DNA of 64,000 bases, from assembly GCF_013041615.1 (NCBI RefSeq), contig NZ_JABEPQ010000005.1, positions 124,001-188,000 of the forward strand, read 5' to 3'. The DNA comes from Knoellia koreensis (GTDB lineage Bacteria; Actinomycetota; Actinomycetes; Actinomycetales; Dermatophilaceae). The notes below the pieces were generated by a model. That model had not been told where the DNA came from, searched no databases, and saw only the letters and a list, made by a program, of their open reading frames with translations. How positions within the stretch are numbered: the first letter of the stretch is position 1; the number at the start of each line of letters is the position of its first letter. A program made the position numbers and the translations under genes. Of the stretch, positions 1,250 through 64,000 are shown piece by piece.

Positions 1250-2105
1250 GTCGCGGGAGGCGTGAGGCGACGTCGTCGAGCACGGCCTGCTGGCCGGCAT
1301 ACACGCCCTCGGCACGCGGCCAGTGCGTGACGACGTCGGTGAAGCCGAGCTCGGCCGCGCGCCCCACCATGTCCTCGAACAGGCCGGCGGACTCCAGGGA
1401 GTACCGCGGGGATCCGTCGAGCGACAGGTAGCGGTCCAAGGGTGTGTCGCGGCCGGCGGCCGCCTCGGCGTCGTCGAGCCGGCGGCTGAGGTCGGCGACC
1501 CCGCCCCACCACTCCTCCAGGGTGTCGCCGCCCTTGCCGTAGGTGACCCAGCCCTGCCCGAGCCGAGCGGCCAGGCGCAGGACGCGCGGTCCGTTGGCGG
1601 CGATCACGAGCGGAACCGCGGGCTGGCGGGTGTCGCCCGGGAGGGTGCGGGCGTCGCGGGTGCGGTATCTCGGGCCGTCGAGGTCGACGTGGTCCTCGTG
1701 GGCCAGCCGGTCGAGGGCTTCGACGAACTCGTGGAACCGGTCGACGCGCTCCTTGAGGGTCAGGTCGTCACCGAGGAGCTGCGCGTCAAGATCACCGCCG
1801 GTGCCGATCCCGCACAGCATGCGCCCCTGTGAAATGTCTTGCAGCGCAAGGAGATCGCGGAAGTAGACATAGGGGTGCCGGTAGTTGGGCGAGCTCACGA
1901 ACGTGCCGATGCCGATGCGCTCGGTCACTGCGGCCGCCGCGGCGAGCACCGGCAGCGCGCCGTACCACGGCGAGTCCGGCAACCCGCCCCAGACGAGGTG
2001 GTCGTACGTCCAGGCGTGGTCGAACCCCATCTCCTCGGCGGCAACCCACCTCCCCCGGGTCTGGGTCCACGAGTCCTCGGGCAGGATGACGATGCCGACG
2101 CGCAT
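1242..2105 (-). CDS. LLM-class (luciferase-like) F420/flavin-dependent oxidoreductase
   Basis: 287 residues starting MRVGIVILPEDSW. The protein follows the bacterial-luciferase TIM-barrel pattern of F420-dependent oxidoreductases: the early GFDHAWTYDHL segment, the TERIGIGTFVSSPNYRHP strand, GRMLCGIGTGGD, and a C-terminal LGFTDVVTHWPR segment. The substrate cannot be told from sequence. The start is supported by a TACCCT box six bases upstream, which suggests a leaderless transcript. The stop overlaps the convergent anti-sigma gene. F420 use is an inference from the family in actinobacteria; an FMN enzyme is also possible. Confidence 0.88.
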   Translation of the reverse strand: MRVGIVILPEDSWTQTRGRWVAAEEMGFDHAWTYDHLVWGGLPDSPWYGALPVLAAAAAVTERIGIGTFVSSPNYRHPYVYFRDLLALQDISQGRMLCGIGTGGDLDAQLLGDDLTLKERVDRFHEFVEALDRLAHEDHVDLDGPRYRTRDARTLPGDTRQPAVPLVIAANGPRVLRLAARLGQGWVTYGKGGDTLEEWWGGVADLSRRLDDAEAAAGRDTPLDRYLSLDGSPRYSLESAGLFEDMVGRAAELGFTDVVTHWPRAEGVYAGQQAVLDDVASRLPRLR

Positions 2106-2111
2106 GTCGTG

Positions 2112-2117
2112 AGGGTA
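2112..2117 (-). promoter_or_regulatory. Candidate -10 box of a leaderless promoter (oxidoreductase at 1242-2105)
   Basis: TACCCT on the minus strand lies 6 nt before the ATG. It is formed by the repeated word CGGCATAC running into CCT. No clear -35 is visible. Confidence 0.45.
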
Positions 2118-2141
2118 TGCCGCGGGGTGGGAAAGGTGGGT

Positions 2142-2945
2142 ATGGAGGGCTTCGAGCTCGAGCAGGACGAGCACGGTGGGAGCGTCGTGAAGATCGGCGG
2201 CTACCCCCAGAGCTACGTCAGCCTCGACGACCCCGAGCTGTTGGTGTTCGGCTACGTGCAGCTGCTGGCCGCCGTCCTCGACTGCCTTCCCGCCGGCCGC
2301 CTCGCGGTCACGCACGTGGGCGGAGCGGCCATGACGTTGCCCCGCTACGTACAGCACGTCCGGCCGGGCTCGCCCCAGATCGTGTTCGAGCCCGATGCGG
2401 CCCTGACCGACCAGGTGCGGCGTGCGCTGCCCCTTCCCCGCGGCCACCGCATCCGGGTGCGACCGCAGGCGGGCCGCGAGGGAGTCGGCGCACTGCGCGC
2501 GGACAGCGCCGACGCCATGGTCGTCGACGCGTTCGCGGGCAACCAGGTGCCCGCGGACCTCACCAGCGTCGAGTGGTTCGCCGAGGTGGCCCGCGTGCTG
2601 CGTCCGGGCGGAGTGCACGCCATGAACACCGCCGACGACGTCGGCCACCGGCACGCGGCACGGCTGCACGCCGCCATGCGCGAGCACCTGCCCCACACGG
2701 CGGTCATCGCACAGACCGACATCTGGAAGCGTCGGCGGTTCGGCAACCTGGTCCTGGTGGGGAGCACGGCACCCCTTCCTCTGCAGGCCCTGTCGCGCGC
2801 CGTGGCTGCGACCGTCTTCCCCAGCACCGTGGTCGGCGGGGAGGGGGCGGCCCGGGCGCTCGGCGGCGCAAAGCCCTTCACCGACGCCGACGCGACTGCG
2901 AGCCCACCGCCGCCCACGCCACCCGATGGATGGCGGCTGCGCTGA
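2142..2945 (+). CDS. Spermidine synthase-like protein (class I methyltransferase fold)
   Basis: 267 residues from ATG 2142; an in-frame GTG at 2136 is an alternative. The protein has the spermine/spermidine synthase core: an early GYVQLLAAVLD segment, RLAVTHVGGAAMTLPRYV (nucleotide-binding loop with GGG altered to VGG), and VVDAFAGNQVP near residues 126-136, the family's DAFxG motif. No N-terminal membrane helices are present, unlike fused actinobacterial forms. It may be an aminopropyltransferase or a relative that has taken another role; polyamine genes are not seen nearby. Confidence 0.75.
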   Translation: MEGFELEQDEHGGSVVKIGGYPQSYVSLDDPELLVFGYVQLLAAVLDCLPAGRLAVTHVGGAAMTLPRYVQHVRPGSPQIVFEPDAALTDQVRRALPLPRGHRIRVRPQAGREGVGALRADSADAMVVDAFAGNQVPADLTSVEWFAEVARVLRPGGVHAMNTADDVGHRHAARLHAAMREHLPHTAVIAQTDIWKRRRFGNLVLVGSTAPLPLQALSRAVAATVFPSTVVGGEGAARALGGAKPFTDADATASPPPPTPPDGWRLR

Positions 2946-2972
2946 CCGCGCCCCGTCGAGCAGAATGAGGCC

Positions 2973-4082: not shown

Positions 4083-4445
4083 TCAGACGAGTGGCAGGTA
4101 TGCCGTGAGGTCGGCGCGCTGCCCACTCACCCGCAGGCGCCCGGACTCCCACGCCTCGTCCCACCCGAGCGCGCCGGTCGCCACCTCGAGCCAGGTCTGC
4201 GCGTCCGTCTCCACGACCGCAGGCGGCGTGCCGCGCGTGTGCGTGGGCCCCTCGATGCACTGCACCGCACCGAACGGCGGGACCCGCACCTCGACGCTGC
4301 GGCCCGGCGCCCGGATCGCGAGCTCCTCCAACGCGTACCGCACGGCCGTGGCCAGCTCGGCCCGCGCCGTGTCAGCCCCTGAGTCCTTCCAGACCGACAC
4401 CGCGGACTGCCCCGATGACACGGGAACTCGGCGACGCGGCGGCAT
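4083..4445 (-). CDS. Sterol-carrier-family (SCP2-like) small protein
   Basis: 120 residues, MPPRRRVPVSSGQSAVSVW at the start. The middle and C-terminus (VEVRVPPFGAVQCI, then TWLEVATGALGWDEAWESGRLRVSGQRADLTAYLPL) follow the SCP2-like domain seen in actinobacterial sterol carrier family and mycothiol-dependent proteins. No catalytic residues are known for this group; a lipid or thiol cofactor binding role is possible but not shown. It lies just downstream of purL on the same strand, separated by a strong terminator, and has its own leaderless promoter. Confidence 0.7.
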   Translation of the reverse strand: MPPRRRVPVSSGQSAVSVWKDSGADTARAELATAVRYALEELAIRAPGRSVEVRVPPFGAVQCIEGPTHTRGTPPAVVETDAQTWLEVATGALGWDEAWESGRLRVSGQRADLTAYLPLV

Positions 4446-4451
4446 ACCCGC

Positions 4452-4633: not shown

Positions 4634-6934
4634 TCAGCGGCCGAAGACGGCCGGCAAGGTGTCCTGGTGGGCGCGGCGCAGCTCCTCGAGCGACACCGTG
4701 AACTGGCCCTGCACGTCGAGCCCGTCGGTCTGGTCGTCGACCACACCGATCCGGGCGTGCACCTGGCCGCGGGCGGTGCACATGTCGGTGAACCGCACCT
4801 CCTCCGAGCGCGGCACCGCGACGATGGCGCGAGCGGTCGACTCGCTGAAGAGCGTGGTGAACACGTCGATCCCGTCACGGGCGGCGACGTCGTCGAGCCA
4901 GACGCGCGCACCAACACCGTGGCGCAGCGTGGCCTCGGCGAGGGCAATGGCGAGGCCGCCGTCGGACAGGTCATGGGCCGCGTCGACGAGGCCGTCACGG
5001 CTGGCGTTGACGAGGATCTCGCCCAGCAGCTGCTCCGCCGCGAGGTCGACGACCGGCGGGTGCCCACCGAGGTGCCCGTGCACGACATTGGCCCACTCGC
5101 CACCGTCGAGCTCGTCGCGGGTGGTGCCGAGCAGGTAGATCACCTGCCCCGGCGTGCGCCACCCACTCGGGGTGCGGCGGGCCACGTCGTCCATGACGCC
5201 CAGCACACCGATGACCGGGGTCGGGTGGATCGCGACGTCACCGGTCTGGTTGTAGAAGCTGACGTTGCCGCCGGTCACCGGGATGCCGAGCGTCTTGCAG
5301 CCCTCGGCGATGCCGCGGATGGCCTCGCGGAACTGCCACATGACGCCCGGGTCCTCGGGCGAGCCGAAGTTGAGGCAGTCGGTGACGGCCAGCGGCGTCG
5401 CACCGGACGTCGCGACGTTGCGGTAGGACTCGGCCAGCGCCAGCTGCGCGCCGGCATACGGGTCGAGCTTGGCAAACCGGCCGTTGCAGTCGGTCGACAC
5501 GGCGACCCCGCGGCCGGTCTCCTCGTCGACGCGCACCACACCGGCGTCGTCTGGCATCGCGAGCGCGGTGTTGCCCATGACGTAGCGGTCGTACTGGTCG
5601 GTGACCCACGACTTGTCGCAGAGGTTCGGCGAGGCGAGCAGGGTGAGCAGGTCGGCCCTGAGCGCGTCGCCCGTGGAGGGCTTGGCGAGCGTGCGGGTTC
5701 CGTTCTCCTGCAAGGCATCGAGGTATGCCGGCCGCTCCAGCGGCCGCTGGTAGGTCGGCCCCTCGTGGGCGACCGACCGCGGGGGCACGTCGACGATGAC
5801 GTCGCCGTGCCACGTGATGACGAGGCGGTCACCGTCGGTGACCTCGCCGAGCACGGTGGCCTCGACGTCCCAGCGGTCGGTGATAGCGAGGAACTCCTCG
5901 AGCCGCTCCGGGTGGACGACGGCCATCATGCGCTCCTGGCTCTCCGACATGAGGATCTCCTCGGGCCGGAGGCTTGCGTCACGCAGCGGCACCCGGTCGA
6001 GCTCGATCTGCATGCCGCCGTCGCCGTTGGACGCGAGTTCGCTGGTGGCACAAGACAATCCGGCACCACCGAGGTCTTGGATGCCGTCGACGACGCCGGC
6101 CTTGTAGAGGTCAAGGCAGCACTCGATGAGCACCTTCTCGGCGAACGGGTCGCCGACCTGCACGGCCGGGCGCTTGGTCGGCCCGCCCTCGTCGAACGTC
6201 TCGGAAGCCAGCACCGAGACACCGCCGATCCCGTCACCGCCGGTCTTGGCGCCGAACAGCACGACCTTGTTGCCGACGCCCGACGCCTTGGCGAGGTGGA
6301 TGTCCGAGGTCCGCATCGCGCCGACGCACAGGGCGTTGACGAGCGGGTTGCCCTGGTAGCAGTCGTCGAAGACGACCTCGCCGCCGATGTTCGGCAGGCC
6401 GAGGCAGTTGCCGTAACCGCCTACTCCCGCAACGACTCCCGGCAGCACCCGCTGGGTGTCGGGGTGGTGCAGGTTGCCGAACCGCAGCGGGTCCATCACG
6501 GCGATCGGGCGGGCACCCATCGACATGATGTCGCGGACGATGCCGCCGACACCGGTGGCTGCACCCTGGTAGGGCTCGACGTACGACGGGTGGTTGTGCG
6601 ACTCGGCCTTGAAGGTCACCGCCCAGCCCTCGCCTATGTCGACGACGCCGGCGTTCTCACCGATGCCGACGAGCAGCTTCTCGCGCATCTCGTCGGTGGT
6701 GTTCTCGCCCCAGAGCTTGAAGTGCACCTTGGACGACTTGTAGGAGCAGTGCTCGGACCACATGACCGAGTACATCGCCAGCTCGGCGCTCGTGGGCCGG
6801 CGGCCGACGATCTCGCGGATGTTGGCGTACTCGTCGGCCTTGAGCCCGAGCTCGGCCCACGGCTGGTCGACGTCGGGCGTGGTGGCCGCGTGCTCGACGG
6901 TGTCGACGGCGGGGCGGTTGAGCTGCTGTGTCAC
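4634..6934 (-). CDS. purL: Phosphoribosylformylglycinamidine synthase subunit PurL
   Basis: 766 residues from GTG 6934, the usual size of the small (bacterial, PurSQL-type) PurL. It makes FGAM from FGAR using ATP and ammonia supplied by PurQ, step 4 of purine synthesis. Diagnostic segments include [12 protein letters not shown] near residue 50, the AIR-synthase-like ATP site [20 protein letters not shown], the central [14 protein letters not shown], and [12 protein letters not shown] in the second half. The GTG start overlaps the purQ stop by four bases (GTGA), so translation is coupled. Confidence 0.97.
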
Positions 6935-7602
6935 GCCGAAACCGCCTGTCGCAGAACGGAAGTGAAGAACGGGAGCCCGTCGAGGCTCGGCCCGTAACCG
7001 TCCTCGATGCAGTGCTCCGGGTGCGGCATGAGGCCGACGACGTTGCCCCGCTCGTTGGTGACCCCCGCGATGTCGCGGTATGAGCCATTGGGGTTCGACG
7101 CGGCATACCGGAAGACGACCTGGCCCTCCCCCTCGAGCCGGTCGAGCGTCGCCTCGTCGGCGACGTAGCCGCCCTCGCCGTTCTTGAGGACGATGGTGAT
7201 CTCCTGGCCGGCCTCGAAGTCGGACGTCCAGGCGGTGGAGGCGTTCTCGACGACGAGCCGCTGGTCGACGCAGTTGAACTTGCGGTGGTCGTTGCGGATC
7301 AGCGCGCCCGGCAGCAGGTGGCTCTCGCACAGCACTTGGAAGCCGTTGCAGATGCCCAGCACGGGCAGCCCGCCCTGCGCCGCCGGGACCAGCGCGTCCA
7401 TCACCGGCGCGAACCGGGCGATGGCGCCGCAGCGCAGGTAGTCGCCGTAGGAGAACCCGCCCGGCAGGATGACCGCGTCGACGCCCTTGAGGTCGGCGTC
7501 GCCGTGCCAGAGGCTGACCGGCTCGGCGCCGACGGCTCGGACCGCCCGCAGGGCGTCACGGTCGTCGAGGGACCCCGGAAACGTGACGACCCCGACCTTC
7601 AC
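6931..7602 (-). CDS. purQ: Phosphoribosylformylglycinamidine synthase glutaminase subunit PurQ
   Basis: 223 residues. Class I glutamine amidotransferase that releases ammonia for PurL. The catalytic triad is visible: Cys85 in GICNGFQ, His194 and Glu196 in MPHPEH. The N-terminus [15 protein letters not shown] and oxyanion strand [15 protein letters not shown] match the family. It overlaps purS by four bases upstream and purL by four bases downstream, giving a tightly coupled purS-purQ-purL unit whose products form one complex. Confidence 0.97.
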
Positions 7603-8300: not shown

Positions 8301-9221
8301 TCAGGCCGTGAAGGTGCGGCCGGTCAGGCGTTCGTAGGCCTCGACGTACTTGGCCCGCGTCTTCTCGAGCACGTCCTGCGGCATGGGCGGCGGCGCGTCG
8401 CCGGAGTCCTTGTCCCAACCGCTCGCCGGCGACAGCAGCCACTCGCGGACGAACTCCTTGTCGAACGACGGCTGCGTGTGGCCCGGCTCCCACTGGTCGG
8501 CGGGCCAGAACCGCGACGAGTCCGGCGTCAGCACCTCGTCGGCGAGCACCAATCCGTCGGGAGCCGACGCGTCCAGCCCGAACTCCACCTTGGTGTCGGC
8601 GATGAGTATGCCGCGCTCGCTCGCGATCTCGTTGCCACGAGCCAGGATTCGCGTCGTCAGGTCGTTCGCCCGCGCGGCGGTCTCCTCACCCACGGCAGCC
8701 ACCACGTCGGCATACGACATCGGCTGGTCATGTTCGCCCTGGGGCGCCTTGGTCGACGGGGTGAACACGGGCGACGGCAGCCGCGACCCGTCGACGAGGC
8801 CCTCGGGCAGCTCGACGCCGCTGACGTGGCCGTCCGCCTTGTACTCCCGCAGCCCGCCGCCAGTGAGGTAGGCGCGGGCAACGCACTCGACGGGGAGCAT
8901 CGACAGCTTGCGCACGAGGACCGCGCGCCCTGCGACCTCGTCCGGCACGTCGGTCGACACGACGTGGTTGGGCACGACGTCGGCCAGTTGCTCGAACCAC
9001 CACAGCGACAGCTGGGTCAGGACGGCGCCCTTGTCGGGGACCGGCGTCGCGAGGATGTGGTCGAAGGCCGAGATCCGGTCACTCGCCACGAGCAGCAGCT
9101 GGTCGTCGCGCGCTTCCCCGGTCGCCGGGTCGAGCGGCGCGTAGAGGTCGCGGACCTTGCCGGAGTAGACGTGCGCGTAGCCGGGCAGCGCCGGCGGGGC
9201 GTCGAGCTGGGAGGACGTCAT
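8301..9221 (-). CDS. purC: Phosphoribosylaminoimidazole-succinocarboxamide synthase
   Basis: 306 residues, of the longer (about 300-residue) SAICAR synthase class. It joins CAIR and aspartate with ATP, step 7 of purine synthesis. Recognisable segments are HVYSGKVRDLYAPL (phosphate-binding N-terminus), LLVASDRISAFD, ECVARAYLTGGGLREY, and the aspartate-site region LIADTKVEFGLD with LADEVLTPDSSRFW. A GGGAGG ribosome site precedes the ATG. It sits on the same strand as purSQL, separated from it by the antitoxin locus. Confidence 0.97.
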   Translation of the reverse strand: MTSSQLDAPPALPGYAHVYSGKVRDLYAPLDPATGEARDDQLLLVASDRISAFDHILATPVPDKGAVLTQLSLWWFEQLADVVPNHVVSTDVPDEVAGRAVLVRKLSMLPVECVARAYLTGGGLREYKADGHVSGVELPEGLVDGSRLPSPVFTPSTKAPQGEHDQPMSYADVVAAVGEETAARANDLTTRILARGNEIASERGILIADTKVEFGLDASAPDGLVLADEVLTPDSSRFWPADQWEPGHTQPSFDKEFVREWLLSPASGWDKDSGDAPPPMPQDVLEKTRAKYVEAYERLTGRTFTA

Positions 9222-9263: not shown

Positions 9264-10508
9264 TCAGCTGCGTCCGTAGACCAGTCGCAGGAGGTCGGTG
9301 ACGGCCGCGTCGGACAGGGCCTCAGGAGTGGGACCGGACTTCGGCCGGAGCACGGACAGCTCCACCGAGCCGCGCTTGCCGTCGACGGCGTCGAACCGCA
9401 GCGACGTGCGCACGCCGACGTCGGTGTCACGGGTGGAGGTCCACGCCGGAAGCCCGGCCACGGTCGTGCGGGTCTCGCCGGGCTGGGGCCCCGGGTCCGT
9501 CCCGCCGACGAGCATCTCGATCCCCGGCGGGGGGTCGACCTGGTTGTCGACCGGCGTCCCGGTGAACAGCCGAGCCCCAGGACCGGACGACGCGTCGGTG
9601 GTCGTGCCGTAGTTGCCGATGTTGAGGTGGTAGGTGTCAGTCCACACCCGGAAGGCCGCCCTGCACGACTCCGGATCGCGCGAGCAGTCCCCAGTCGGCG
9701 TCGTGGAAGCCGTTCGCGTCGGAGTGCCCACCGCCACGTCGGTGTGGACCACGGCCGGCCCGAGCAGCCGGTTGAGCAGGTTCGCGACGGCATCCTCGGT
9801 CCACCACCCGGGGGCCGACACGTCGCTCGACGCCTCGTCGTACACGCTGCCGGCCGGCCCCTGGTTCGCCACGTTCAACGCCACCTCGACAGCTGGATGC
9901 CCGCCCTTGACCGGCGCCACCGACCAGGTCTCGACGCGGTTGCCGCCACCCACGCGGACCAGCCGGTCCACGGGCTCGCCGAACCCGTCGATCATCAGCT
10001 TCGTAGGCCCCTCCGGACCGCGTACCTGCCCTTCGGCGGTGAGGTCCGTGGGCGCGATGACGACCGACAGGTACACGTCCTGCCGCTGCCGGATGCTGCT
10101 CACCGTCTGCGCGAGCACCACCGTCCCCGCCTCGTAACCGGCGGCATCCTGCCGCTGCACCCTCGCCGTCGACCCGGCCACCGCCCGGGACCAGGCAGCC
10201 ACCACGTCCAGACAGCTGGTGGGTCGGTCCACACACCCCGGGTATGCCGCTGCGCTCGCCGTCGTGCCGGAGGTCGCCGCCGGGGGCGTCACGTCTGCCC
10301 GGTCGCCACCCAGCGGCGCGAGGTTCACAGCCCCCACCGCGAGGGCCGCCACCGCCGCGGCGACCCCGGCCGCACCGACCCGGCGCCGCCGCACCCGCGC
10401 ACGACCACCGGCCACGACGTCGTCAGTCGTGTAGGGGGCATCACCCAGGTCCGCGGCATACGCCTCGCGCAGCCCGTCGGGCACTCGTTCCATCGTCTCC
10501 ATTGCCAT
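9264..10508 (-). CDS. Membrane-anchored protein of unknown function, coupled to a SigE-family sigma factor
   Basis: 414 residues. A short cytoplasmic N-terminus (VPDGLREAYAADLGDAPYTTDDVV) precedes a basic stretch RVRRRRV, one membrane helix at about residues 41-62 and a large secreted domain containing conserved-looking Cys pairs (CVDRPTSC, CSRDPESC). No catalytic motif is recognised. The ATG overlaps the sigma-factor stop (TGATG), so the two are co-translated; by position it could be an anti-sigma or signal-sensing partner, but no zinc anti-sigma motif is present. Function unknown. Confidence 0.7.
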   Translation of the reverse strand: MAMETMERVPDGLREAYAADLGDAPYTTDDVVAGGRARVRRRRVGAAGVAAAVAALAVGAVNLAPLGGDRADVTPPAATSGTTASAAAYPGCVDRPTSCLDVVAAWSRAVAGSTARVQRQDAAGYEAGTVVLAQTVSSIRQRQDVYLSVVIAPTDLTAEGQVRGPEGPTKLMIDGFGEPVDRLVRVGGGNRVETWSVAPVKGGHPAVEVALNVANQGPAGSVYDEASSDVSAPGWWTEDAVANLLNRLLGPAVVHTDVAVGTPTRTASTTPTGDCSRDPESCRAAFRVWTDTYHLNIGNYGTTTDASSGPGARLFTGTPVDNQVDPPPGIEMLVGGTDPGPQPGETRTTVAGLPAWTSTRDTDVGVRTSLRFDAVDGKRGSVELSVLRPKSGPTPEALSDAAVTDLLRLVYGRS

Positions 10509-11017
10509 CACTTCCCTTGTCCGGCAACGACTTCCAGCGCTGCGCGCAGCGCGCGCAGCCCATCGCTGGTCGTGCTCTTCACGGTGCCCTCGGAGCAACC
10601 CATGAGGCGGGCCACCTCCGCGACGGGAAGGTCCTCGAGGTGTCTCAGCACGACGGCCATCCGCTGCCGTGTCGGCAGCACGGCGAGCGCCGCCCGCAGG
10701 TCGAGCCGGGCATCCACCCCGTCCGACCCCGACGAGACGACCACGTCGTGCCCCGCGTCGGCCGCGGACCGCTCGCGCTGCCACCAGTGCCGGCGCTGCT
10801 CGCTGATCAGCGAACGCACCAGCACCGTGCGGGCGTATGCGTGCGGGTCGTCGACGCCATGGATCCGTGGCCACGCGGCATACAGCTTCTCCAGCGTGGT
10901 CTGCACGAGGTCCTCGGCCCGGTGCGGGTCGCGACTCGTCGCGAGCGCCACTCGGCGCAGCCGCGGGATCGCCGCCTGCACGAACCCACGGAACTCTTCC
11001 TCGAGGTCTGCCCTCAC
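10508..11017 (-). CDS. SigE-family (SIG-alt) ECF sigma-70 factor
   Basis: 169 residues, typical of the actinobacterial SigE-family group. Region 2 is visible as FVQAAIPRLRRVALATSRDPHRAEDLVQ...LEKLYAAW, and region 4 as RQRMAVVLRHLEDLPVAEVARLMGCSEGTVKS. It should direct RNA polymerase to a small set of extracytoplasmic-stress promoters. The following gene overlaps its stop and encodes a single-pass membrane protein that may respond to or control it. A TACCGGA-like region upstream was not good enough to call a promoter. Confidence 0.92.
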   Translation of the reverse strand: MRADLEEEFRGFVQAAIPRLRRVALATSRDPHRAEDLVQTTLEKLYAAWPRIHGVDDPHAYARTVLVRSLISEQRRHWWQRERSAADAGHDVVVSSGSDGVDARLDLRAALAVLPTRQRMAVVLRHLEDLPVAEVARLMGCSEGTVKSTTSDGLRALRAALEVVAGQGK

Positions 11018-11133: not shown

Positions 11134-12525
11134 GTGTCCGCTCCCACATCACCCCGCCCGTCGCTGCACGACCGCCACCACCTGCCGTTCGCGATCGGGG
11201 CAGTGGCGCTGGTGACGTTGGGTGCGTTCGAGAACCGCGCCGTCACCACCGTCCTGCCCACCGTGGCCCGCGAGCTCGACGGGCTCTGGCTGTTCGGCGC
11301 GGCGAGCGCGGCGCCCCTGGTGACGTTCGTGGTCGCCACGACCGTCGCCGGCCTGTGGGCGGACCGGAGCGGGCCGACGCGGGTCCTGTATGCCGGCATG
11401 GCCGTCTTCGTCGCGGCCGAGCTGCTCATGGGGCTGGCTCCGTCGATGGTGCCGTTCGTGGGCGGGCGTCTGCTGGGCGGCTTCGCGGAGGGGCTCTTCG
11501 ACGTGGGCCTCACCGTGCTGGTGGCCCGCGCCCTGCCCGCCGTGCTGCGACCGAAGATGTTCGCCACGTTCGCTGCGGCGTGGGTGCTGCCCTCGCTGCT
11601 GGGCCCTTCGGTCGCAGGTTTCGTGGCCGAGCAGTGGCACTGGCGGCTCGTCTTCCTCCTCGGCGTCGCACTGTTGTTGCCGGTCGCCCTCTTCCTCCGC
11701 CCCGCCATGACCCGCTCGGCCGCCACCCACGCAGTCCCGACCCCCGACGAGGCGCAGCGGCTCCGGGCGCGCCGCACGACCGGCTGGGCGCTGGTCGCCG
11801 CCACCGGGCTGGCCGCCGTCACGGCCGGAGGTTCGCTGCTCACCCGGGAGGGCTGGTTGCAGGTCACCGGCGGCGCGCTCCTCGTCGCCGGGGCCACCCT
11901 GCTCGTGCCGGCGCTGCGCGTCGTGCTGCCCGCCGGCACGCTCACGGGAGCACCCGGCATACCCGCCCTCACGGCCCTGCGCGGGCTCCTGGGTGCCGCG
12001 TTCGGCACCGCCGGCGGACTGCTCCCGCTCCTGCTCACCGAGCTGCGCGGCTACGGCCCCACCGCCGCCGGCGTCAGCCTCACCATCACCGGGGTCTTCT
12101 GGGCGGCCGGTTCCCAGCTCCAGGGGCTGCGCGCCGTCCAGGCCCGCGCGAGCGTGGTCGGGCTGCTGCGCAGCGGGTTCGCCCTCATCACCGCCGGACT
12201 CGTCGGCCCCGTGCTGCTCGCCCTCGACGCCGTCCCCGTCTGGCTCGGCCTGGCCGGCTGGGCCGTCGCCGCGACCGGCATCGGCATCACCTCACCGACG
12301 ATCAGCACGCACGTGCTCACGCTCTCGACCGAAGCCGACCAGGGGCGCAACTCCGCCGCCTCGTTCCTCGCGCCCTCGGTCACTCAGGCACTCGCCTTCG
12401 CCGCCTCCGGTGCCGCCATCGCCTGGCAGGCGCCGCACCTCACCGGCGGCCTGTTCGCCGTCGTCATGGCGGCCTGCGTGGTGATGGCCGCCGCGGCGCT
12501 CGCCCTCAGCCCGCGCGCCCGCTGA
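11134..12525 (+). CDS. MFS transporter (drug efflux type)
   Basis: 463 residues from GTG 11134; GTG 11125 and ATG 11050 are in frame, but the palindrome and putative -10 favour the later starts. About 12-14 hydrophobic helices are present. The A-type loop after helix 2 reads GLWADRSGPTRVL and helix 5 has GPSVAGFVAEQWHWRLVF, the antiporter motif C style of drug-H+ exporters. The substrate is unknown. It is transcribed divergently from the SigE-type sigma gene and converges on purD, with a shared terminator. Confidence 0.85.
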   Translation: MSAPTSPRPSLHDRHHLPFAIGAVALVTLGAFENRAVTTVLPTVARELDGLWLFGAASAAPLVTFVVATTVAGLWADRSGPTRVLYAGMAVFVAAELLMGLAPSMVPFVGGRLLGGFAEGLFDVGLTVLVARALPAVLRPKMFATFAAAWVLPSLLGPSVAGFVAEQWHWRLVFLLGVALLLPVALFLRPAMTRSAATHAVPTPDEAQRLRARRTTGWALVAATGLAAVTAGGSLLTREGWLQVTGGALLVAGATLLVPALRVVLPAGTLTGAPGIPALTALRGLLGAAFGTAGGLLPLLLTELRGYGPTAAGVSLTITGVFWAAGSQLQGLRAVQARASVVGLLRSGFALITAGLVGPVLLALDAVPVWLGLAGWAVAATGIGITSPTISTHVLTLSTEADQGRNSAASFLAPSVTQALAFAASGAAIAWQAPHLTGGLFAVVMAACVVMAAAALALSPRAR

Positions 12526-13888: not shown

Positions 13889-13955
13889 TTGGCGACCGGC
13901 CCCGGTCGGCGCACGCGGGCGGCATACCGGACGGACAGGGCCGCCAGACGAAGAA

Positions 13956-15249: not shown

Positions 15250-15345
15250 GAGGTATGCCGTCCGGGTGCCGGGATGTGCGCCGGTGCGCCATGGTGCGCG
15301 GTTAGACTCGTGCGTTCGCGCAAGGGACGAGCAGAAAGACCACCT

Positions 15346-18708: not shown

Positions 18709-20025
<1,317 letters not shown>

Positions 20026-21818: not shown

Positions 21819-21857
21819 GGTGACCACGCGGCATACCGACGCCGCGGTGACGCCGGC

Positions 21858-22274
21858 TCAGCCGGCCGCGAAGCCGAGCTCGCGCGCGGCGGTGGCCGAG
21901 GAGTCGCGCACGAACTGGGCGGTGCGCTGCTCCTCCTCGGTCTCGCCGATCGCCCCAGCCGCGCGCGACAGCGCGGCGAGCGCGCGCAGGAAGCCGCGGT
22001 TGGGCTCGTGCTCCCAGGGCACCGGGCCCTGGCCGCGCCAGCCCGCGCGCCGGAGCGCGTCGAGCCCGCGGTGGTAGCCGGTGCGGGCGTAGGCGTACGC
22101 CTCGACCGTGCGGTTGTCGGCGAGCGCGTCCTCGGCGAGGGTCGCCCAGGCCAGGGACGAGGCGGGGTATGCCGCGGCGACCTGGTCGGCCGCGACGCCC
22201 TCCTCGAGCTTGGCGGCGGCCGGGTCGGGCGGGAGCTCGGTCGCGGGGACGCCGAGCAGGTTGTCTCCGGGCAT
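21858..22274 (-). CDS. DUF3151 family protein
   Basis: 138 residues, MPGDNLLGVPATELPPD at the start, matching the actinobacterial DUF3151 family in length and in segments such as YPASSLAWATLAE, AYAYARTGYHRGLDALRRAGWRGQGPVPWEHEPNRGFLRAL. The helical repeats resemble TPR. The function is unknown. The ATG overlaps the stop of fba (TGATG), so the two are translated together; the same fba-DUF3151 neighbourhood is common in actinobacteria as far as I recall. Confidence 0.85.
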   Translation of the reverse strand: MPGDNLLGVPATELPPDPAAAKLEEGVAADQVAAAYPASSLAWATLAEDALADNRTVEAYAYARTGYHRGLDALRRAGWRGQGPVPWEHEPNRGFLRALAALSRAAGAIGETEEEQRTAQFVRDSSATAARELGFAAG

Positions 22275-24653: not shown

Positions 24654-24658
24654 ACGTC

Positions 24659-39857: not shown

Positions 39858-39859
39858 GC

Positions 39860-47093: not shown

Positions 47094-47131
47094 CAAGAGG
47101 GGTATGCCGCCCACGCGGCATACCCCTCTTG
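47094..47131. terminator. Bidirectional terminator, perfect 17-bp stem from paired GTATGCCG words
   Basis: Left arm 47094-47110, right arm 47115-47131, loop CCAC. The stem core is GGGGTATGCCGC. It lies between the convergent NlpC/P60 and clpB genes. Confidence 0.85.
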
Positions 47132-49840: not shown

Positions 49841-49899
49841 GGTATGCCGGCGGGTCACCCGGGTGACCGGCGCACGGGTGCCCGCCCCCGCGGCATACC
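49841..49899 (-). terminator. Terminator of the ROK gene with paired GTATGCCG words
   Basis: Outer arms GGTATGCCG / CGGCATACC (49841-49849, 49891-49899) enclose the palindrome GGTCACCCGGGTGACC (49853-49868). Just after the ROK stop and before the clpB promoter. Confidence 0.65.
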
Positions 49900-51356: not shown

Positions 51357-52853
51357 GTGCACGAGCCGGGGTATGCCGTGGGCGGGCGTTCGCGTGAGCT
51401 CGCCCGGTTGGCGTTGTCGCTGGTCCAGCCCGGTTTCGTCGGTCTGGAGCTGCCGGACTGGGTGCGGCGCCGGCTCGACGACGGGCTCGGCGGGGTGGCG
51501 TTGTTCTCCCGCAACATCGCCCGGTCCGAGCAGGTGGCGCGGCTCACGGCACAGGTCCACAGCGCCAACCCCGACGCGCTGGTGGCCGTCGATGAGGAGG
51601 GCGGTGACGTCACCCGCCTCGAGTACCGGACCGGGTCGTCGTGGCCGGGCAACCTGGCGCTGGGCCGGGTCGACGACGTCGGCCTGACCGAGCGCGTGGC
51701 CGCCGAGATCGGTGCGTTGTTGGCTGAGGTGGGCGTCGATCTCGACTACGCCCCCGACGCCGACGTCAACACGAATGCGGCCAACCCGGTGATCGGCGTG
51801 CGCAGCTTCGGGTCGGATGCGGCGCTGGCCGCCCGCCACACCGCGGCCTGGGTGCGGGGGTTGCAGTCGGCGGGCGTGCTGGCCTGTGCCAAGCACTTCC
51901 CCGGCCACGGCGACACCCACGTCGACAGCCACCTCGCGGTGCCGGAGGCCGAGCTCGGCGACGAGGCCACGAGCCCGGCGCTCGAGCCCTTCCGTGCCGC
52001 CGTGGCGGCCGGCTGCGCCGCGGTGATGAGCGCCCACATCCGCCTGCGCGGGTGGCCGGACGACCGCCCGGCGACGCTGGTGCCCGACGTCATGACGGGG
52101 TTGCTGCGCGACCAGCTGGGCTTTGCCGGGCTCGCGGTGTCGGACGGTCTGGAGATGGGCGCGGTCTCCTCGACCGTCGGCCTCGCCGAGGGCGGCGTGC
52201 TGGCCGTCGCCGCCGGTGTCGACGCGCTGTGCGTCGGTGGTGGGCTGGCCGATCCCGAGACCTGCGACGCCGTCGTCGTCGCGCTGGTCGATGCGGTGGC
52301 GCAGGGCAGGCTGCCGGAAGCGCGGCTGGTCGAGGCAGCCGGGCGAGTCAGCGCCGCTGCTGCGCTGCGAGACGACCTGCGCCGGGCGGCGGGCCCGCCC
52401 GTGGTCACGAGCGGTCGGAGGGCCGGGCTGGAAGCGGCCCGACGCGCACTGGAGGTCAGCGGAACGCCCACCACCACCGCGCAGGCACCGGTCATCGCCC
52501 AGCTGAACGCCAGCCAGAACTTCGCCGTCGGGGACGAGACCCCGGCCGGGGTGGTGGCCGCGGCGCGGGACCGGTGGGGTGAGGTGCCGGTGCACTCGAT
52601 CGGCCCCGCGGACGACCCGCGCGCGGCGGTGGCCGGCACCGAGGGGCACCCGCTGTGGGTGGTCACCCGCGACGCCCACCGGCACACCTGGATGACGTCG
52701 GCTCTCGAGCACGTGCTCGCCGCCCGCCCGGACGCGGTCGTCATCGACACTGGCTGGCCGGGGTGGCGCCCCGCGGACGGGACGGCACTGGTGGTGACGC
52801 ACGGCGCGTCCCGGGCGAGCGGGGCTGCCGTCGTCGACCTGCTCGCGCGCTGA
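51357..52853 (+). CDS. Family 3 glycoside hydrolase, NagZ-like beta-N-acetylhexosaminidase
   Basis: 498 residues from GTG 51357. The TIM barrel has the NagZ signature KHFPGHGDTHVDSH near residues 179-192, whose Asp-His dyad is the acid/base of N-acetylglucosaminidases, and the nucleophile Asp near 262 in VSDGLEMGA. A C-terminal alpha/beta domain (VIAQLNASQNFAVGDETPAG...) follows, longer than in proteobacterial NagZ. No signal peptide is evident. It probably releases GlcNAc from wall fragments or chitin. The ROK gene and a structured leader lie upstream. Confidence 0.92.
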   Translation: MHEPGYAVGGRSRELARLALSLVQPGFVGLELPDWVRRRLDDGLGGVALFSRNIARSEQVARLTAQVHSANPDALVAVDEEGGDVTRLEYRTGSSWPGNLALGRVDDVGLTERVAAEIGALLAEVGVDLDYAPDADVNTNAANPVIGVRSFGSDAALAARHTAAWVRGLQSAGVLACAKHFPGHGDTHVDSHLAVPEAELGDEATSPALEPFRAAVAAGCAAVMSAHIRLRGWPDDRPATLVPDVMTGLLRDQLGFAGLAVSDGLEMGAVSSTVGLAEGGVLAVAAGVDALCVGGGLADPETCDAVVVALVDAVAQGRLPEARLVEAAGRVSAAAALRDDLRRAAGPPVVTSGRRAGLEAARRALEVSGTPTTTAQAPVIAQLNASQNFAVGDETPAGVVAAARDRWGEVPVHSIGPADDPRAAVAGTEGHPLWVVTRDAHRHTWMTSALEHVLAARPDAVVIDTGWPGWRPADGTALVVTHGASRASGAAVVDLLAR

Positions 52854-53163: not shown

Positions 53164-53169
53164 AGTATG
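53164..53169 (-). promoter_or_regulatory. Candidate leaderless -10 box of the RraB-like gene
   Basis: CATACT on the minus strand, 7 nt before the ATG, contained in a CGGCATAC word. Confidence 0.35.
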
Positions 53170-53170
53170 C

Positions 53171-53210
53171 CGCGTGGGCAAGCCACCACCTCGGGTGGCA
53201 CGCCCACGCG
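53171..53210 (-). terminator. Hairpin terminator of the phosphodiesterase gene
   Basis: Outer arms CGCGTGGGC / GCCCACGCG (53171-53179, 53202-53210) and inner GCCACC / GGTGGC, 30 bp past the stop at 53240. Confidence 0.7.
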
Positions 53211-55038: not shown

Positions 55039-56061
55039 TCAGCGCCGGGCCTCCTCGAACAGCTCCGCACGCGGGTCGTGACCTGCGTCCTGCGCCTTGA
55101 GCACCTCGACGGCGTCCTTGGCCTCATCGGAAAGGCGTTGCGGCACAACGACATGCACCTTTGCCATGAGGTCGCCGGGCTTGTCCTTCTTCGGGACACC
55201 CCGGCCCTTGACGCGCAGCACCCGCCCGCTCGGCGTGCCGGGTGCGATGCGCACCTTGACCGGCTTGCCGTCGAGGGTCGGCACCGAGACCGTGGCCCCG
55301 AGCGCCGCCTCGGCGAACGTCACCGGCAGGTCGACGGTGATGTTGTCACCGTCGCGCCCGAACGCCGGGTGCTTCTCCACGCTGACCGTGAGGATGAGGT
55401 CGCCCGCGGGGCCGCCGGCCTCGCCGGGCTCACCCTTGCCGCGCAGCCGGATCTTCTGACCGTCCTTGACCCCCACCGGGATTCGCGTGGTGATGTGCCC
55501 ACCGTCGCTGGTGCCCAGCGTGACCGTCTTGCCCTCGACTGCGTCGCGGAACGACAAGGTCGTACGGGCGGTGAGGTCCGCTCCCTTGCGCGGCCCGCGA
55601 GGGGCGCCGTACCCGGCATACCCCTGCTGTCCGCCGTAGGGCGAGGCCCCACCGAACATGCCACTCAGCAGGTCCTCGAGGTCGGGCTGGCCGCCACCAC
55701 CGCCGGTGGAGTAGCGCACTCGTGTGCCACCGCCCCCACCGCCGCCGAACATCGAGGAGAACACGTCCTCGAAGCCGCCCTGGCCGCCGCTGCCCGGACC
55801 GCCCGCGGTGAAGCGGGCGCCGCCACGCGCCATCTGGCGGATGGCGTCGTACTCCTGGCGCTGCTCGGGGTCGGACAGGACCGAGTTGGCCTCGCCGATC
55901 TCCTTGAACTTCTGTTCCGCCGCAGCGTCACCGGGGTTCTGGTCGGGGTGGTACTTGCGGGCGAGCTTCCGGTACGCCTTCTTGATCGCCGCCTCGTCGG
56001 CGTCCTGGGGGACGCCGAGAGTGGCGTAGAAGTCCTTCTCGAACCAGTCTTGGCTGGCCAT
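55039..56061 (-). CDS. dnaJ: DnaJ-type co-chaperone without zinc domain
   Basis: 340 residues. J domain with HPD in RKYHPDQNPG, then a Gly/Phe-rich linker (GGGGGGGTRVRY, GMFGGASPYGGQQ), then the two substrate-binding CTD barrels (LTARTTLSFRDAVEGKTVTLGTSDGG, FGRDGDNITVDLPVTFAEAALGATVSVPTL). The four CxxCxGxG zinc repeats are absent, as in CbpA/type II J proteins. It stimulates DnaK ATPase. Lies between grpE and hspR. Confidence 0.95.
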   Translation of the reverse strand: MASQDWFEKDFYATLGVPQDADEAAIKKAYRKLARKYHPDQNPGDAAAEQKFKEIGEANSVLSDPEQRQEYDAIRQMARGGARFTAGGPGSGGQGGFEDVFSSMFGGGGGGGTRVRYSTGGGGGQPDLEDLLSGMFGGASPYGGQQGYAGYGAPRGPRKGADLTARTTLSFRDAVEGKTVTLGTSDGGHITTRIPVGVKDGQKIRLRGKGEPGEAGGPAGDLILTVSVEKHPAFGRDGDNITVDLPVTFAEAALGATVSVPTLDGKPVKVRIAPGTPSGRVLRVKGRGVPKKDKPGDLMAKVHVVVPQRLSDEAKDAVEVLKAQDAGHDPRAELFEEARR

Positions 56062-56108
56062 GCGTGCGCCCTCCTCTCAGTGGGACGTCGATGGGTTGGG
56101 GTATGCCG

Positions 56109-56693: not shown

Positions 56694-58582
<1,889 letters not shown>

Positions 58583-58630: not shown

Positions 58631-58670
58631 TTAGGAGCCGGTATGCCGTGCGGCAAGTCGACGCTGCAAA

Positions 58671-60236: not shown

Positions 60237-60632
60237 ATGGACGCAGTACTCCAGGCCCTGGCCGACCCGAGCCGGCGAACGATCCTCGAGACCTTGCGCG
60301 ACCACCCGGCCACGGCCGGAGAGCTCGCCGACCTGCTCCCGATCGCCCGGCCCGGCGTCTCCCGGCACCTGCGGGTGCTGCGCGAGGCCGAGCTCGTCGA
60401 GGTGCGCCAGGACGCCCAGCGGCGCATCTACAGCCTGCGACCGGAGGCGCTCGTCGAGCTCGACGGGTGGCTCGCGGCATACCGCGTCCTCTGGGAGCAG
60501 CGACTCGACGCGCTGCACACCGAGATCGCCCGCGGCACGTCGCGGGCGCGAAAAGCGCTGCGCAGCAATGAAATCCCGGGCAGCAACGAGGAGCCCACCA
60601 AGACCACCCCACGGAAGAAGGCAACAGGATGA
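60237..60632 (+). CDS. ArsR-family regulator (SRPBCC-associated)
   Basis: 131 residues. Winged helix LQALADPSRRTILETLRDHPATAGELADLLPIARPGVSRHLRVLREAELVEVRQDAQRRIYSLRPEALVELDGWL, the pattern of ArsR proteins paired with AHSA1/SRPBCC genes, with no metal-site Cys. The basic, Ser/Thr-rich tail is variable. It overlaps the SRPBCC gene by ATGA and its promoter carries palindromes, so it probably represses its own operon. Confidence 0.92.
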   Translation: MDAVLQALADPSRRTILETLRDHPATAGELADLLPIARPGVSRHLRVLREAELVEVRQDAQRRIYSLRPEALVELDGWLAAYRVLWEQRLDALHTEIARGTSRARKALRSNEIPGSNEEPTKTTPRKKATG

Positions 60633-61764: not shown

Positions 61765-62864
61765 TGCGCGTCCTCTTCCTCCAGCGACAGCCCTGCATCA
61801 AGACGCTGAAGTATGCCGTGGCCCTGCGCGCCCGCGTGCCCGGCCTGCACCTCGAGTTCGCCTACCAGGGCAGGACCTTGAGCGACTTCTACGGCGAGGG
61901 TGACGAGCTGTTCGACGCCTGGCACCTGCTCGCACCCGACCCCACGCACGACCTGCGCCGGGTCGTCGAGCGGGTGCGCCCGGACGTGATCCACTCCCAC
62001 AACCTGCCCGACACCCTCACGGTCGCGGCGTTGGAGGTCGCGGGCGGGCGGGTGCCGATCGTCCACGACGTCCACGACTTCCAGAGCCTGCGCGCCACCC
62101 CGTACGAGGACGGCTTTCCCGACCCGCCGGACCCGATCGCCTCCGAACGCGCCGCGATCGAGGGAAGCGACGCCCTCATCACGGTCTCCGACGTCCTCCT
62201 CGAGGAGATCACCGCCAGGTATGCCGTGCCGGCACCTCACCTGGTCGTGCCCAACTTCGCGTTGGCGCGCGACCTGCCACCGCTGCCGGACGAGCTCGAG
62301 ACGCACGAGCAGGACGTGGGCGAACCCCTGCGGTTCGTCTACGAAGGCACGATCTCCACCTGCGGTGGCCACTACGACCTGCGCGAGATCTTCGCGGCCA
62401 TCGCCAGTACTCCGGGCGTACGGCTCGACGTCCACTGCGGACGCGAGCCGATGGCGGCATACCGCGGGCTCGCCGAGCGCTTCGACTCCCTCACGCTGCA
62501 TCCGCCGATGCCCACGCGTGCCCTCATGCGGATGCTGCCCCGCTACGACGTCGGCTGGGCCGGCTTCAACGCCACCCTCAACGACGCGCACCTCGAGACG
62601 GTGCTGCCCAACAAGGCGTTCGAGTACGTCGGTGCGGGTCTTGGTGTCCTGACGCTCCCGCACAAGGCCTTGGCGCGGTGGGTCGAGGCGGAGGGCGTGG
62701 GCATCGTCCTGGACTCCCTCGACGACCTGTCGACCTCGCTGCGGGCCGCCGACGTGGAGACCGTGCGCAAGACGGCACGCGCCCACCGGGAGCGCTACAC
62801 CCTCGACGCCCACATCCACGAGGTCCTCGGGCTCTACCGCTCCCTGGGGGCCGGCCCGGCGTGA
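61764..62864 (+). CDS. Glycosyltransferase, GT4-like (GT-B fold)
   Basis: 366 residues. N-terminal Rossmann half (MRVLFLQRQPCIKTLKYAVAL, RPDVIHSHNLPDTLTVAALE, VPIVHDVHDFQSLR), hinge near LVVPNFALARDLP, then the donor half (FVYEGTISTCGGHYDLREIFAAI, and KAFEYVGAGLGVLTLPHKAL with the EYxGAG nucleotide-sugar motif). Donor and acceptor are unknown. Coupled to the acyltransferase; probably envelope polysaccharide synthesis. Confidence 0.92.
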   Translation: MRVLFLQRQPCIKTLKYAVALRARVPGLHLEFAYQGRTLSDFYGEGDELFDAWHLLAPDPTHDLRRVVERVRPDVIHSHNLPDTLTVAALEVAGGRVPIVHDVHDFQSLRATPYEDGFPDPPDPIASERAAIEGSDALITVSDVLLEEITARYAVPAPHLVVPNFALARDLPPLPDELETHEQDVGEPLRFVYEGTISTCGGHYDLREIFAAIASTPGVRLDVHCGREPMAAYRGLAERFDSLTLHPPMPTRALMRMLPRYDVGWAGFNATLNDAHLETVLPNKAFEYVGAGLGVLTLPHKALARWVEAEGVGIVLDSLDDLSTSLRAADVETVRKTARAHRERYTLDAHIHEVLGLYRSLGAGPA

Positions 62865-63083: not shown

Positions 63084-63096
63084 CGCCCCGTGATGG

Positions 63097-63102
63097 CACA
63101 GT
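63097..63102 (+). promoter_or_regulatory. Candidate leaderless -10 box of the DUF488 gene
   Basis: CACAGT, 7 nt before ATG 63110. Confidence 0.4.
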
Positions 63103-63109
63103 GGTCGCC

Positions 63110-63496
63110 ATGCCGGTGAGCGTGGTGCGTCTCGGGACGCCGCGAGCTGCGGACGAGGGCCTGCGGATCGGGACCGTGCGGCGCCCTCCCCGGGGGGTGC
63201 CCAAGGCCGAGTTCGCGAGTGGGGACTGGTACGACACCTGGCTGCCGGAGCTGAGCCCGAGCGCCGGGCTGGTCACGCAGGCCCAGGCGGCTGCAACCGA
63301 CGGCGAGTGGCGCAGGTTCGTTCGCGCCTACCGCCGCGAAATGGCCGAGCCCGGGCCTCGACACCTCGTCGAGCTGCTGGCCGCCCTGTCGCACACCAGT
63401 GCTCTGGCAGTCGGCTGTTACTGCGTGGACGAGTCCCGGTGCCACCGCTCGGTCCTGCGCGAGCTGCTGGTCGAGGCCGGCGCAAGCGTCCGGTAG
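63110..63496 (+). CDS. DUF488 family protein
   Basis: 128 residues from ATG 63110. The family is recognised by RLGTPRAADEGLRIGTVRRPPRGVPK, WYDTWLPELSPSAGLV, WRRFVRAYRREMAEPGPRHLVELLAALSH and ALAVGCYCVDESRCHRSVLRELL; the CYCxxxxxCHR cluster resembles a metal or redox site conserved in the group. The function is unknown. The next gene begins 5 bp later, suggesting a shared transcript. Confidence 0.85.
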   Translation: MPVSVVRLGTPRAADEGLRIGTVRRPPRGVPKAEFASGDWYDTWLPELSPSAGLVTQAQAAATDGEWRRFVRAYRREMAEPGPRHLVELLAALSHTSALAVGCYCVDESRCHRSVLRELLVEAGASVR

Positions 63497-63501
63497 CGCG
63501 C

Positions 63502-64000
63502 GTGGACGACGACCTCTTCCGGCGCACGGTCGCGACCCTCACCGCCGCCGACCCGGCGCTGGCCGCCATCACCCGGGCACACGGCATACCCCCGTTGTGG
63601 TTGCGTGACCCCGGGTTTGCGAGCCTCGTGCTGTTCATCCTCGAGCAGCAGGTGTCGCTCGCGAGCGCGGCGGCGGCCTATCGCAAGGTGTTGGCGCGGA
63701 TCGGGACGATGTCGCCGCGGGCGCTGCTGGCCGCCACGCCGGAGGAGCTGCGCGCCGACGGGGTGTCGCGGCAGAAGGACCGCTACCTGCGGGCGCTGGC
63801 CGAGGCGGTCGAGTCGGGTTCGCTGGACCTCGAGGCGTTGGCGGGTATGCCGGACGATGAGGTCCGCGCCCGGCTCACCTCCCTGCCGGGGATCGGCCGG
63901 TGGACCGCCGATGTCTACCTGCTCGCCTGCCTGGGTCGGCCGGACCTGTGGCCGGTCGGCGACCGTGCGTTGCAGGTGGCGGTGGCCGAGGCGCTCGGCC
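63502..64000 (+). CDS. DNA-3-methyladenine glycosylase II family (AlkA/HhH-GPD), 3' end outside window
   Basis: Open from GTG 63502 to the window edge (166 codons visible). FILEQQVSLASAAAAYRKVLAR is the family's early helix with the QQ(V/I)S motif; LTSLPGIGRWTADVYLLACLGRPDLWPVGDRAL contains the helix-hairpin-helix and the Asp of PVGD, the catalytic position. It excises alkylated bases in repair. The absence of an extra N-terminal domain suggests the short, MPG-II type. Confidence 0.88.
   Translation, partial: MDDDLFRRTVATLTAADPALAAITRAHGIPPLWLRDPGFASLVLFILEQQVSLASAAAAYRKVLARIGTMSPRALLAATPEELRADGVSRQKDRYLRALAEAVESGSLDLEALAGMPDDEVRARLTSLPGIGRWTADVYLLACLGRPDLWPVGDRALQVAVAEALG

Follow-up and report, generated by a model that had tools for sequence, protein, structure and literature searches.

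Sequence-specific DNA uptake is, according to the available part of a 2025 paper (PMC12616744), confined to two proteobacterial families, Neisseriaceae and Pasteurellaceae. The DNA uptake sequences (DUS) of Neisseriaceae are described in the excerpted text of PMC3630211 as reaching 1543-3770 copies per genome, as forming dialects, and as occurring in inverted pairs at terminators. Micrococcus luteus can no longer be transformed once comEC is lost, and its transformation needs both tad clusters (partial text of PMC4322843). This study concerns a non-palindromic octamer, GTATGCCG, which recurs throughout a 64,000-nucleotide stretch of the actinobacterium Knoellia koreensis (contig NZ_JABEPQ010000005.1, positions 124,001 to 188,000; hereafter the window) and throughout the draft genome of which the window is a part (G000; other G- and L-numbers denote other genomes and loci sampled). 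Comparison of genomes makes it likely, at a probability of roughly 0.7, that GTATGCCG is a self-recognition word of the DUS type, with dialects.

With the DUS, GTATGCCG shares its thousands of copies, dialects in related species, and inverted, terminator-associated pairs (excerpts of PMC3630211), while the DUS themselves are a different word, GCCGTCTGAA in Neisseria (part of PMC6370729), and are served by a type IV pilus and the ComP receptor, unlike G000, where no match to the PilT family reached the cut-off. The uptake signal sequences (USS) of Pasteurellaceae are likewise short enriched words with types within one family and a role in self-recognition; two types are named in the available part of PMC12616744, compared with at least five words in the family of the window, and the USS system depends on a Gram-negative type IV pilus, again unlike G000. 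The gene kinds of M. luteus transformation, comEA/EC and two tad clusters (partial text of PMC4322843), are the same as those of G000, and the main text of that paper contains neither 'uptake sequence' nor 'uptake signal'. A literature search found no report of uptake words in actinobacteria among the papers listed, most subscription journals and bioRxiv lying outside its scope. The GTATGCCG string itself gave 3142 chance matches, and together with 'uptake sequence' it occurred in one paper, on a transposon vector in Actinobacillus.

An exact count gave 73 copies of GTATGCCG in the window, 38 on the forward and 35 on the reverse strand, spanning positions 1295-63852, in agreement with the initial annotation, which had been made from the letters alone. 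GTATGCCG was the top 8-mer of the window by z-score, with 73 copies against 3.6 expected under an order-3 Markov model whose training data included the word itself; the excess of about 35-fold estimated at the outset is about right when reckoned from base composition alone. A genome-wide count, as had been proposed, and a Markov model applied to 124 kb bear the excess out: G000 (4.28 Mb, 15 contigs) holds 3986 copies, 1983 and 2003 by strand, compared with 114 (54 + 60) for a control word with the letters reversed, and in 124 kb of G000 126 copies were observed against 0.75 expected, a 168-fold excess, when the word was masked in training the order-3 model. The 24 one-mismatch variants pooled were near background in the same 124 kb (78 observed, 59.6 expected), and the specificity of GTATGCCG is therefore sharp and covers eight letters, with a weak flanking preference, G ahead of the word and (C/T)G behind it. 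Both its density, about one copy per kb genome-wide and far over expectation, and the combination of a non-palindromic word with about equal strands are those of an uptake-type word.

Genes were called with a simple codon-based caller written for this analysis instead of a standard annotator, and this caller yielded no usable genes for G014. Within the window, 51 of the 73 copies lie inside called genes, 42 of them in Tyr-Ala or Ala-Tyr frames, and 22 are not wholly inside a gene (3 straddle a gene edge and 2 lie past the last called gene), with genes covering 89% of the sequence. The initial description of the word as occurring in coding and non-coding DNA alike must therefore be corrected: copies are enriched outside genes, and in loci from word-rich genomes 130 of 543 copies were outside called genes, the non-coding share of bases being 13%. 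Inside genes, the word overrides codon preference. TAT makes up 10% of the Tyr codons of G000, yet it was used 43 times out of 48 in the context xxG-TAY-GCC-Gxx, and TAT-GCC filled 184 of 217 G-Tyr-Ala-G contexts across 42 word-rich loci, compared with 3 of 59 in 37 GTATGCCG-poor loci, where such contexts were about one-third as frequent. Rich, poor, and dialect groups were set by hand from counts and k-mer lists, and 'poor' here means poor in GTATGCCG: G069, G037, G038, G126, and G138 were later assigned other words or word-bearing genera. TAC-GCC and TAC-GCG contexts were both scarcer in the word-rich than in the poor group, and a single C-to-T change is therefore insufficient as a source of the word. 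An origin of the copies from codon pairs only, named initially as an outcome that would count against a functional word, was rejected given the TAT override in the exact context and the copies outside genes. GTATGCCG thus sits in genes against codon preference and is enriched between genes, as an uptake word does.

The strand balance and even spacing reported initially also hold beyond the window. Over 42 word-rich loci the strands were split 256 to 287, and local strand skew was not seen in loci with at least 6 copies (dispersion chi2 18.4 on 35 df; origin and terminus unmapped). There is no strand unevenness beyond chance, which speaks against leading-strand words and against KOPS-like ones, the latter excluded initially as well, and sets GTATGCCG apart from polar words with a skewed strand. 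Gaps between copies had a coefficient of variation of 0.77, compared with 0.89 +- 0.04 for random placement, and 0 of 1000 simulations were as low (41 word-rich loci, 518 copies, those less than 60 bases apart merged beforehand). The evenness reflects a deficit of short gaps, with no clear deficit of long ones (123 of 1000 simulations as low).

Copies also face each other more often than expected. Pairs of the form GTATGCCG-N3..30-CGGCATAC numbered 108 in G000 and 207 in G043, compared with 26 and 19 under independent placement, and a two- to elevenfold excess of inverted pairs was found in 11 of the 13 word-rich genomes searched; none were found in the 3 word-poor genomes searched. The window has two tight pairs, 39824/39847 and 47102/47116. 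Each is flanked by convergent called genes and folds into a strong predicted hairpin, in line with the initial remark on inverted pairs at terminators, and a wider pair (49842/49891) folds less markedly (z -2.75). Inverted pairs forming terminator-like hairpins are thus a feature that GTATGCCG has in common with uptake words, though the hairpin habit is not universal.

Within the family of the window, 79 of 149 genomes (30 of 53 genera) carried at least 200 GTATGCCG per Mb, 10 genomes had 60-200 per Mb, and 60 were below that. No excess of GTATGCCG was seen in 148 genomes from 19 other families of the order, where the maximum was 167, with the reversed word at 184 there. A scan of genome contigs gave at least 80 loci matching the 866-aa protein of the window, and among the matches listed, 71 loci of at least 12 kb contained 29 GTATGCCG in 1.43 Mb. 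In single samples of 13 to 20 kb from 16 genomes of 14 other families (20 genomes were chosen, and 4 samples below 5 kb dropped), any related words were no more than weak (G170, G207).

Several GTATGCCG-poor relatives bear other words at similar density, namely GTATGNCG, GTACGNCG, GRATGCCG, and CGAAGGGG. These dialect words were picked from k-mer lists and then counted genome-wide on chosen genomes with chosen controls, not on all 149. GTATGDCG reached 2147-5477 copies (reversed control 537-884) in seven genomes of three genera and 1151-1550 (reversed 203-325) in three genomes of genus g35, and stood at 107 in G000, under its reversed control of 313. GRATGCCG reached 3647-3984 (reversed 258-472) in G012, G016, G026, and G064, compared with 535-1353 in nine others, and GTACGVCG 4934-7965 (reversed 596-1088) in G069 and three g40 genomes, compared with 556-1409 in seven others. 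Codon preference was overridden here as well: Asp was encoded by GAT in 14 of 18 word contexts in G026 (3% overall) and 9 of 10 in G016 (10% overall), and Asn by AAT in 8 of 8 in G012 (17% overall). Flanking G's on TAC-GNC pairs were present at 104 of 246 in G069, 24 of 144 in G001, and 24 of 138 in G045. No strong word was detected in the 32-156 kb sampled from G045, G125, G013, and G009. In a ComEC tree of 18 genomes, words switch several times, and G069, which bears GTACGNCG, is sister to the GTATGCCG-bearing G096 with full support. Dialects in related species, a further trait of uptake words, are therefore present on the chosen genomes.

CGAAGGGG is apparently a separate genome word. Seven genomes of g37 and g38 contain 1746-3180 copies each (reversed 104-147), compared with 159-242 in five others. 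In samples of these genera (L014, L015, L102, L103, L200, L225, L226) it was strand-balanced, with letters unlike GTATGCCG, and its facing pairs were 7 in +- and 3 in -+ orientation.

Beyond the family, 12 named loci were chosen for the codon test from the at least 80 matches, some because they stood out (L107 and L110 had no gene calls). The locus of Salinibacterium metalliresistens (L144) contained 24 GGATGCCG in 22 kb, compared with 1 reversed; GAT filled 13 of its 14 contexts, although its overall share is 23%. The locus of Protaetiibacter mangrovi (L145) contained 23 CGGATGCG, compared with 4 reversed, and GAT filled 8 of 12 contexts, its overall share being 8%. Related words may thus extend past the family to named actinobacteria, although GTATGCCG itself was not in excess there. 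The initial suggestion of a marker for a lineage of Micrococcales thus stands in part: this spelling is high only in the family of the window, and related words lie outside it. In a 22-kb locus of Nocardioides szechwanensis (L128), GTACGCCG was over-represented.

Ten congeners were identified by means of the DNA of the window, and 23 copies in one 19.6-kb stretch were compared with them. At the word, 32 of 86 ungapped comparisons were identical (37%); random 8-mers gave 22%. The congeners have 54 aligned words, of which 32 are words in G000 too. The 54 non-identical comparisons included GTAGGCCG (6), GGGTGCCG (6), GTGTGCCG (5), and GTACGCCG (2); a C-to-T change in methylated GTACGCCG was rejected as the main source of the word, given these 2 of 54.

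A gene for an HK97-type capsid was found in 4 of the 32 word-rich genomes searched. All four genes lie within word-free stretches, of 6.8, 14.5, 14.7, and 7.2 kb, in genomes with a mean of one copy per 1.1-2.3 kb. The word is thus missing from recently acquired DNA, as expected of an uptake word, at four of four capsid-gene islands, the sole foreign DNA examined. One word-free island at an HK97-type capsid gene, in G000 (L207, contig 1, 6761-13557), is a small phage-like or encapsulin-like element.

The comEA and comEC genes are adjacent in G000. A Flp/Tad locus encodes two Flp pilins, TadE, a TadG-like protein, CpaB, a ParA-like protein, an ATPase, and two membrane proteins. The other tad cluster comprises tadA, tadB, tadC, a Flp-like ORF that was recognised by eye and not by family search, and tadE- and tadG-like genes; the gene preceding tadA is presumably ssd. 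Between tadC and the Flp-like ORF of this second cluster lie genes for a cation-efflux and a DUF1345 protein (L049, 5992-7676). ComEC was found in 145 of the 149 family genomes, the four misses being assemblies that are 58, 68, 81, and 95% complete, and the PilT family exceeded the cut-off in 2 of 149. Neither therefore separates rich from poor genomes, and presence of comEC or PilT was rejected as the cause of the word. No match to TadA was found in the G014 locus.

The initial annotation had left an uptake word, a Chi-like site, and a nucleoid or methylation mark side by side; the tests favour the first of these because of the dialects, hairpin pairs, even spacing, word-free phage-like islands, and com/tad genes, and leave the others less favoured. 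DUS combine thousands of copies with hairpin pairs and dialects, and the uptake class is preferred for GTATGCCG for this reason; no other class among those considered is known to unite the three. From these comparisons I infer that the word acts in uptake and that drive, rather than an internal protein, made it, and likewise the nature of the receptor. A sequence-specific part of the competence apparatus, probably a minor pilin of the Tad/Flp type or else some other receptor at the surface, would bind free DNA carrying GTATGCCG; ComEA/ComEC would import this DNA and RecA would then recombine it. Alleles with the word would thus be taken up and re-inserted more often, and molecular drive would fill the genome up to about one copy per kb, with even spacing arising if a fragment needs no more than one copy. 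A receptor of altered specificity would rewrite the word and give rise to the dialects GTATGNCG, GTACGNCG, GRATGCCG, and possibly CGAAGGGG in related genera.

Several observations weigh against an uptake word. The uptake genes present in G000 are equally present in word-poor relatives: G001, G013, G045, and G125, for example, retain comEA/comEC, and G013, G061, G125, and others retain a tad cluster, so the presence of the machinery does not predict the word. A sequence-specific receptor was not found, minor pilins not having been tested for DNA binding, and neither the ComEA nor the ComEC tree (18 genomes each) is sorted by dialect. Among the dialects, GTATGDCG exceeds its reversed control by just 2.8-fold in G004, the GTACGNCG flank test was variable in small samples (11 of 34 in G124, 5 of 13 in G053 and G083, others from 0), and the sampled GTATGNCG loci had no preferred pair orientation (3 +-, 5 -+, 9 same-strand). 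Two of the 13 rich genomes had inverted pairs at about the chance level (1.1-fold in G047, 1.2-fold in G011), and intergenic enrichment was absent in the samples of G007 (5 of 41) and G017 (3 of 29). Any other slow genome-wide word should likewise be conserved and be lost from phage islands.

A rival reading is the site of an internal chromosome protein, for example a nucleoid-associated protein, a condensin-loading factor, or a transcription-termination factor, selected at about one site per kb, which would account for a genome-wide, evenly spaced word that is enriched between genes and conserved between congeners. This is nevertheless unlikely: such a site would need to have changed repeatedly between genera of one family, the near-complete codon override would mean strong pressure at each of thousands of sites, genes contain most of the copies, and paired hairpins would be unexpected. 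That GTATGCCG is short, non-palindromic, and frequent would suit a recombination hot spot of the Chi kind, recognised by enzymes of the AdnAB/RecBCD type, but the lack of local strand polarity (256 against 287 over the 42 loci), together with hairpin pairs and sharp genus-level dialects, which are not known as features of Chi, renders it quite improbable.

A methylation or restriction mark, or a word maintained by a methyltransferase or repair enzyme in the manner of HIP1, is given an equally small chance. HIP1 (GCGATCGC) of cyanobacteria is a palindromic, high-density genome-wide word; it is similarly abundant and is not known to form hairpin pairs. GTATGCCG is non-palindromic and in this differs from HIP1, as had been pointed out initially, and the congeners show several sequences at word sites while TAC-GCG and TAC-GCC are both reduced, so that the word is not explained by a single repair or deamination step. 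GCGATCGC was the top word of an Alkalinema locus (L165), and it also ranked first among the 8-mers in 20 kb sampled from an actinobacterium (L239 of G163, family f14), where it stood at 15 places, counted as 30 on the two strands together (z 8.6). Finally, a functionless codon-pair or mutational by-product would fit the 42 of 51 coding copies of the window in Tyr-Ala or Ala-Tyr frames, but it is already contradicted by the counts: TAT is favoured before GCC in the exact flanking context despite its overall rarity, 130 of 543 copies are outside genes, and there is neither an excess in the 148 genomes of other families nor one among the pooled one-mismatch variants, which leaves this reading hardly any probability at all.

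Table 1. Copies of GTATGCCG (exact matches) and their hairpin-forming inverted pairs in the window; gene status is from the codon-based caller.
Feature	Position	Strand	Remark
word GTATGCCG	2115..2122	+	
word GTATGCCG	4098..4105	+	
word GTATGCCG	5723..5730	+	
word GTATGCCG	8606..8613	+	
word GTATGCCG	10242..10249	+	
word GTATGCCG	11388..11395	+	
word GTATGCCG	12799..12806	+	
word GTATGCCG	15253..15260	+	outside called genes
word GTATGCCG	17361..17368	+	
word GTATGCCG	20239..20246	+	
word GTATGCCG	21670..21677	+	
word GTATGCCG	22167..22174	+	
word GTATGCCG	23469..23476	+	
word GTATGCCG	24066..24073	+	
word GTATGCCG	25546..25553	+	
word GTATGCCG	27400..27407	+	
word GTATGCCG	29073..29080	+	
word GTATGCCG	31000..31007	+	outside called genes
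word GTATGCCG	31973..31980	+	
word GTATGCCG	33078..33085	+	straddles called gene edge
word GTATGCCG	33701..33708	+	
word GTATGCCG	35275..35282	+	
word GTATGCCG	36539..36546	+	
word GTATGCCG	38802..38809	+	outside called genes
word GTATGCCG	39824..39831	+	hairpin arm
word GTATGCCG	40649..40656	+	outside called genes
word GTATGCCG	43075..43082	+	
word GTATGCCG	43357..43364	+	
word GTATGCCG	44528..44535	+	
word GTATGCCG	47102..47109	+	hairpin arm
word GTATGCCG	49842..49849	+	outside called genes
word GTATGCCG	51371..51378	+	
word GTATGCCG	53165..53172	+	outside called genes
word GTATGCCG	56101..56108	+	outside called genes
word GTATGCCG	58641..58648	+	outside called genes
word GTATGCCG	61811..61818	+	
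word GTATGCCG	62219..62226	+	
word GTATGCCG	63845..63852	+	beyond last called gene
word GTATGCCG	1295..1302	-	
word GTATGCCG	4440..4447	-	outside called genes
word GTATGCCG	5452..5459	-	
word GTATGCCG	7101..7108	-	
word GTATGCCG	8708..8715	-	
word GTATGCCG	10454..10461	-	
word GTATGCCG	10876..10883	-	
word GTATGCCG	11955..11962	-	
word GTATGCCG	13920..13927	-	outside called genes
word GTATGCCG	16151..16158	-	
word GTATGCCG	19419..19426	-	
word GTATGCCG	20005..20012	-	straddles called gene edge
word GTATGCCG	21829..21836	-	outside called genes
word GTATGCCG	23750..23757	-	
word GTATGCCG	24648..24655	-	straddles called gene edge
word GTATGCCG	25137..25144	-	
word GTATGCCG	26275..26282	-	
word GTATGCCG	27568..27575	-	
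word GTATGCCG	28703..28710	-	
word GTATGCCG	30189..30196	-	outside called genes
word GTATGCCG	32888..32895	-	
word GTATGCCG	34491..34498	-	
word GTATGCCG	35328..35335	-	
word GTATGCCG	37529..37536	-	
word GTATGCCG	38964..38971	-	
word GTATGCCG	39847..39854	-	hairpin arm
word GTATGCCG	41923..41930	-	
word GTATGCCG	44792..44799	-	
word GTATGCCG	47116..47123	-	hairpin arm
word GTATGCCG	49891..49898	-	outside called genes
word GTATGCCG	55614..55621	-	
word GTATGCCG	56827..56834	-	
word GTATGCCG	60475..60482	-	
word GTATGCCG	62455..62462	-	
word GTATGCCG	63582..63589	-	beyond last called gene
inverted word pair, hairpin, 15-bp stem, convergent genes, terminator-like	47096..47129	.	-30.7 kcal/mol, z -8.1
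inverted word pair, hairpin, convergent genes, terminator-like	39818..39860	.	-33.7 kcal/mol, z -7.3

The window also contains a palindrome, AAGGCCTT, at 4 places; with both strands read, its count is 8, compared with 0.6 expected.

Taken as an uptake word, GTATGCCG would rather probably, on these genome comparisons, belong to a third, independently evolved sequence-specific DNA uptake system, the first in Gram-positives and the first to be supplied through Tad/Flp pili, with a dialect family of core G-N-A-Y-G-N-C-G that has been repeatedly rewritten, replaced in two genera by the unrelated-looking CGAAGGGG, and that maybe extends to named actinobacteria outside the family. If this is true, sequence-specific uptake evolved a further time, in a monoderm phylum and with different pili, and the many natural dialect switches would aid in finding the receptor. 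Natural transformability of actinobacteria would then be predictable from the words, and DNA furnished with the word could make genetics easier in environmental species that are hard to transform.

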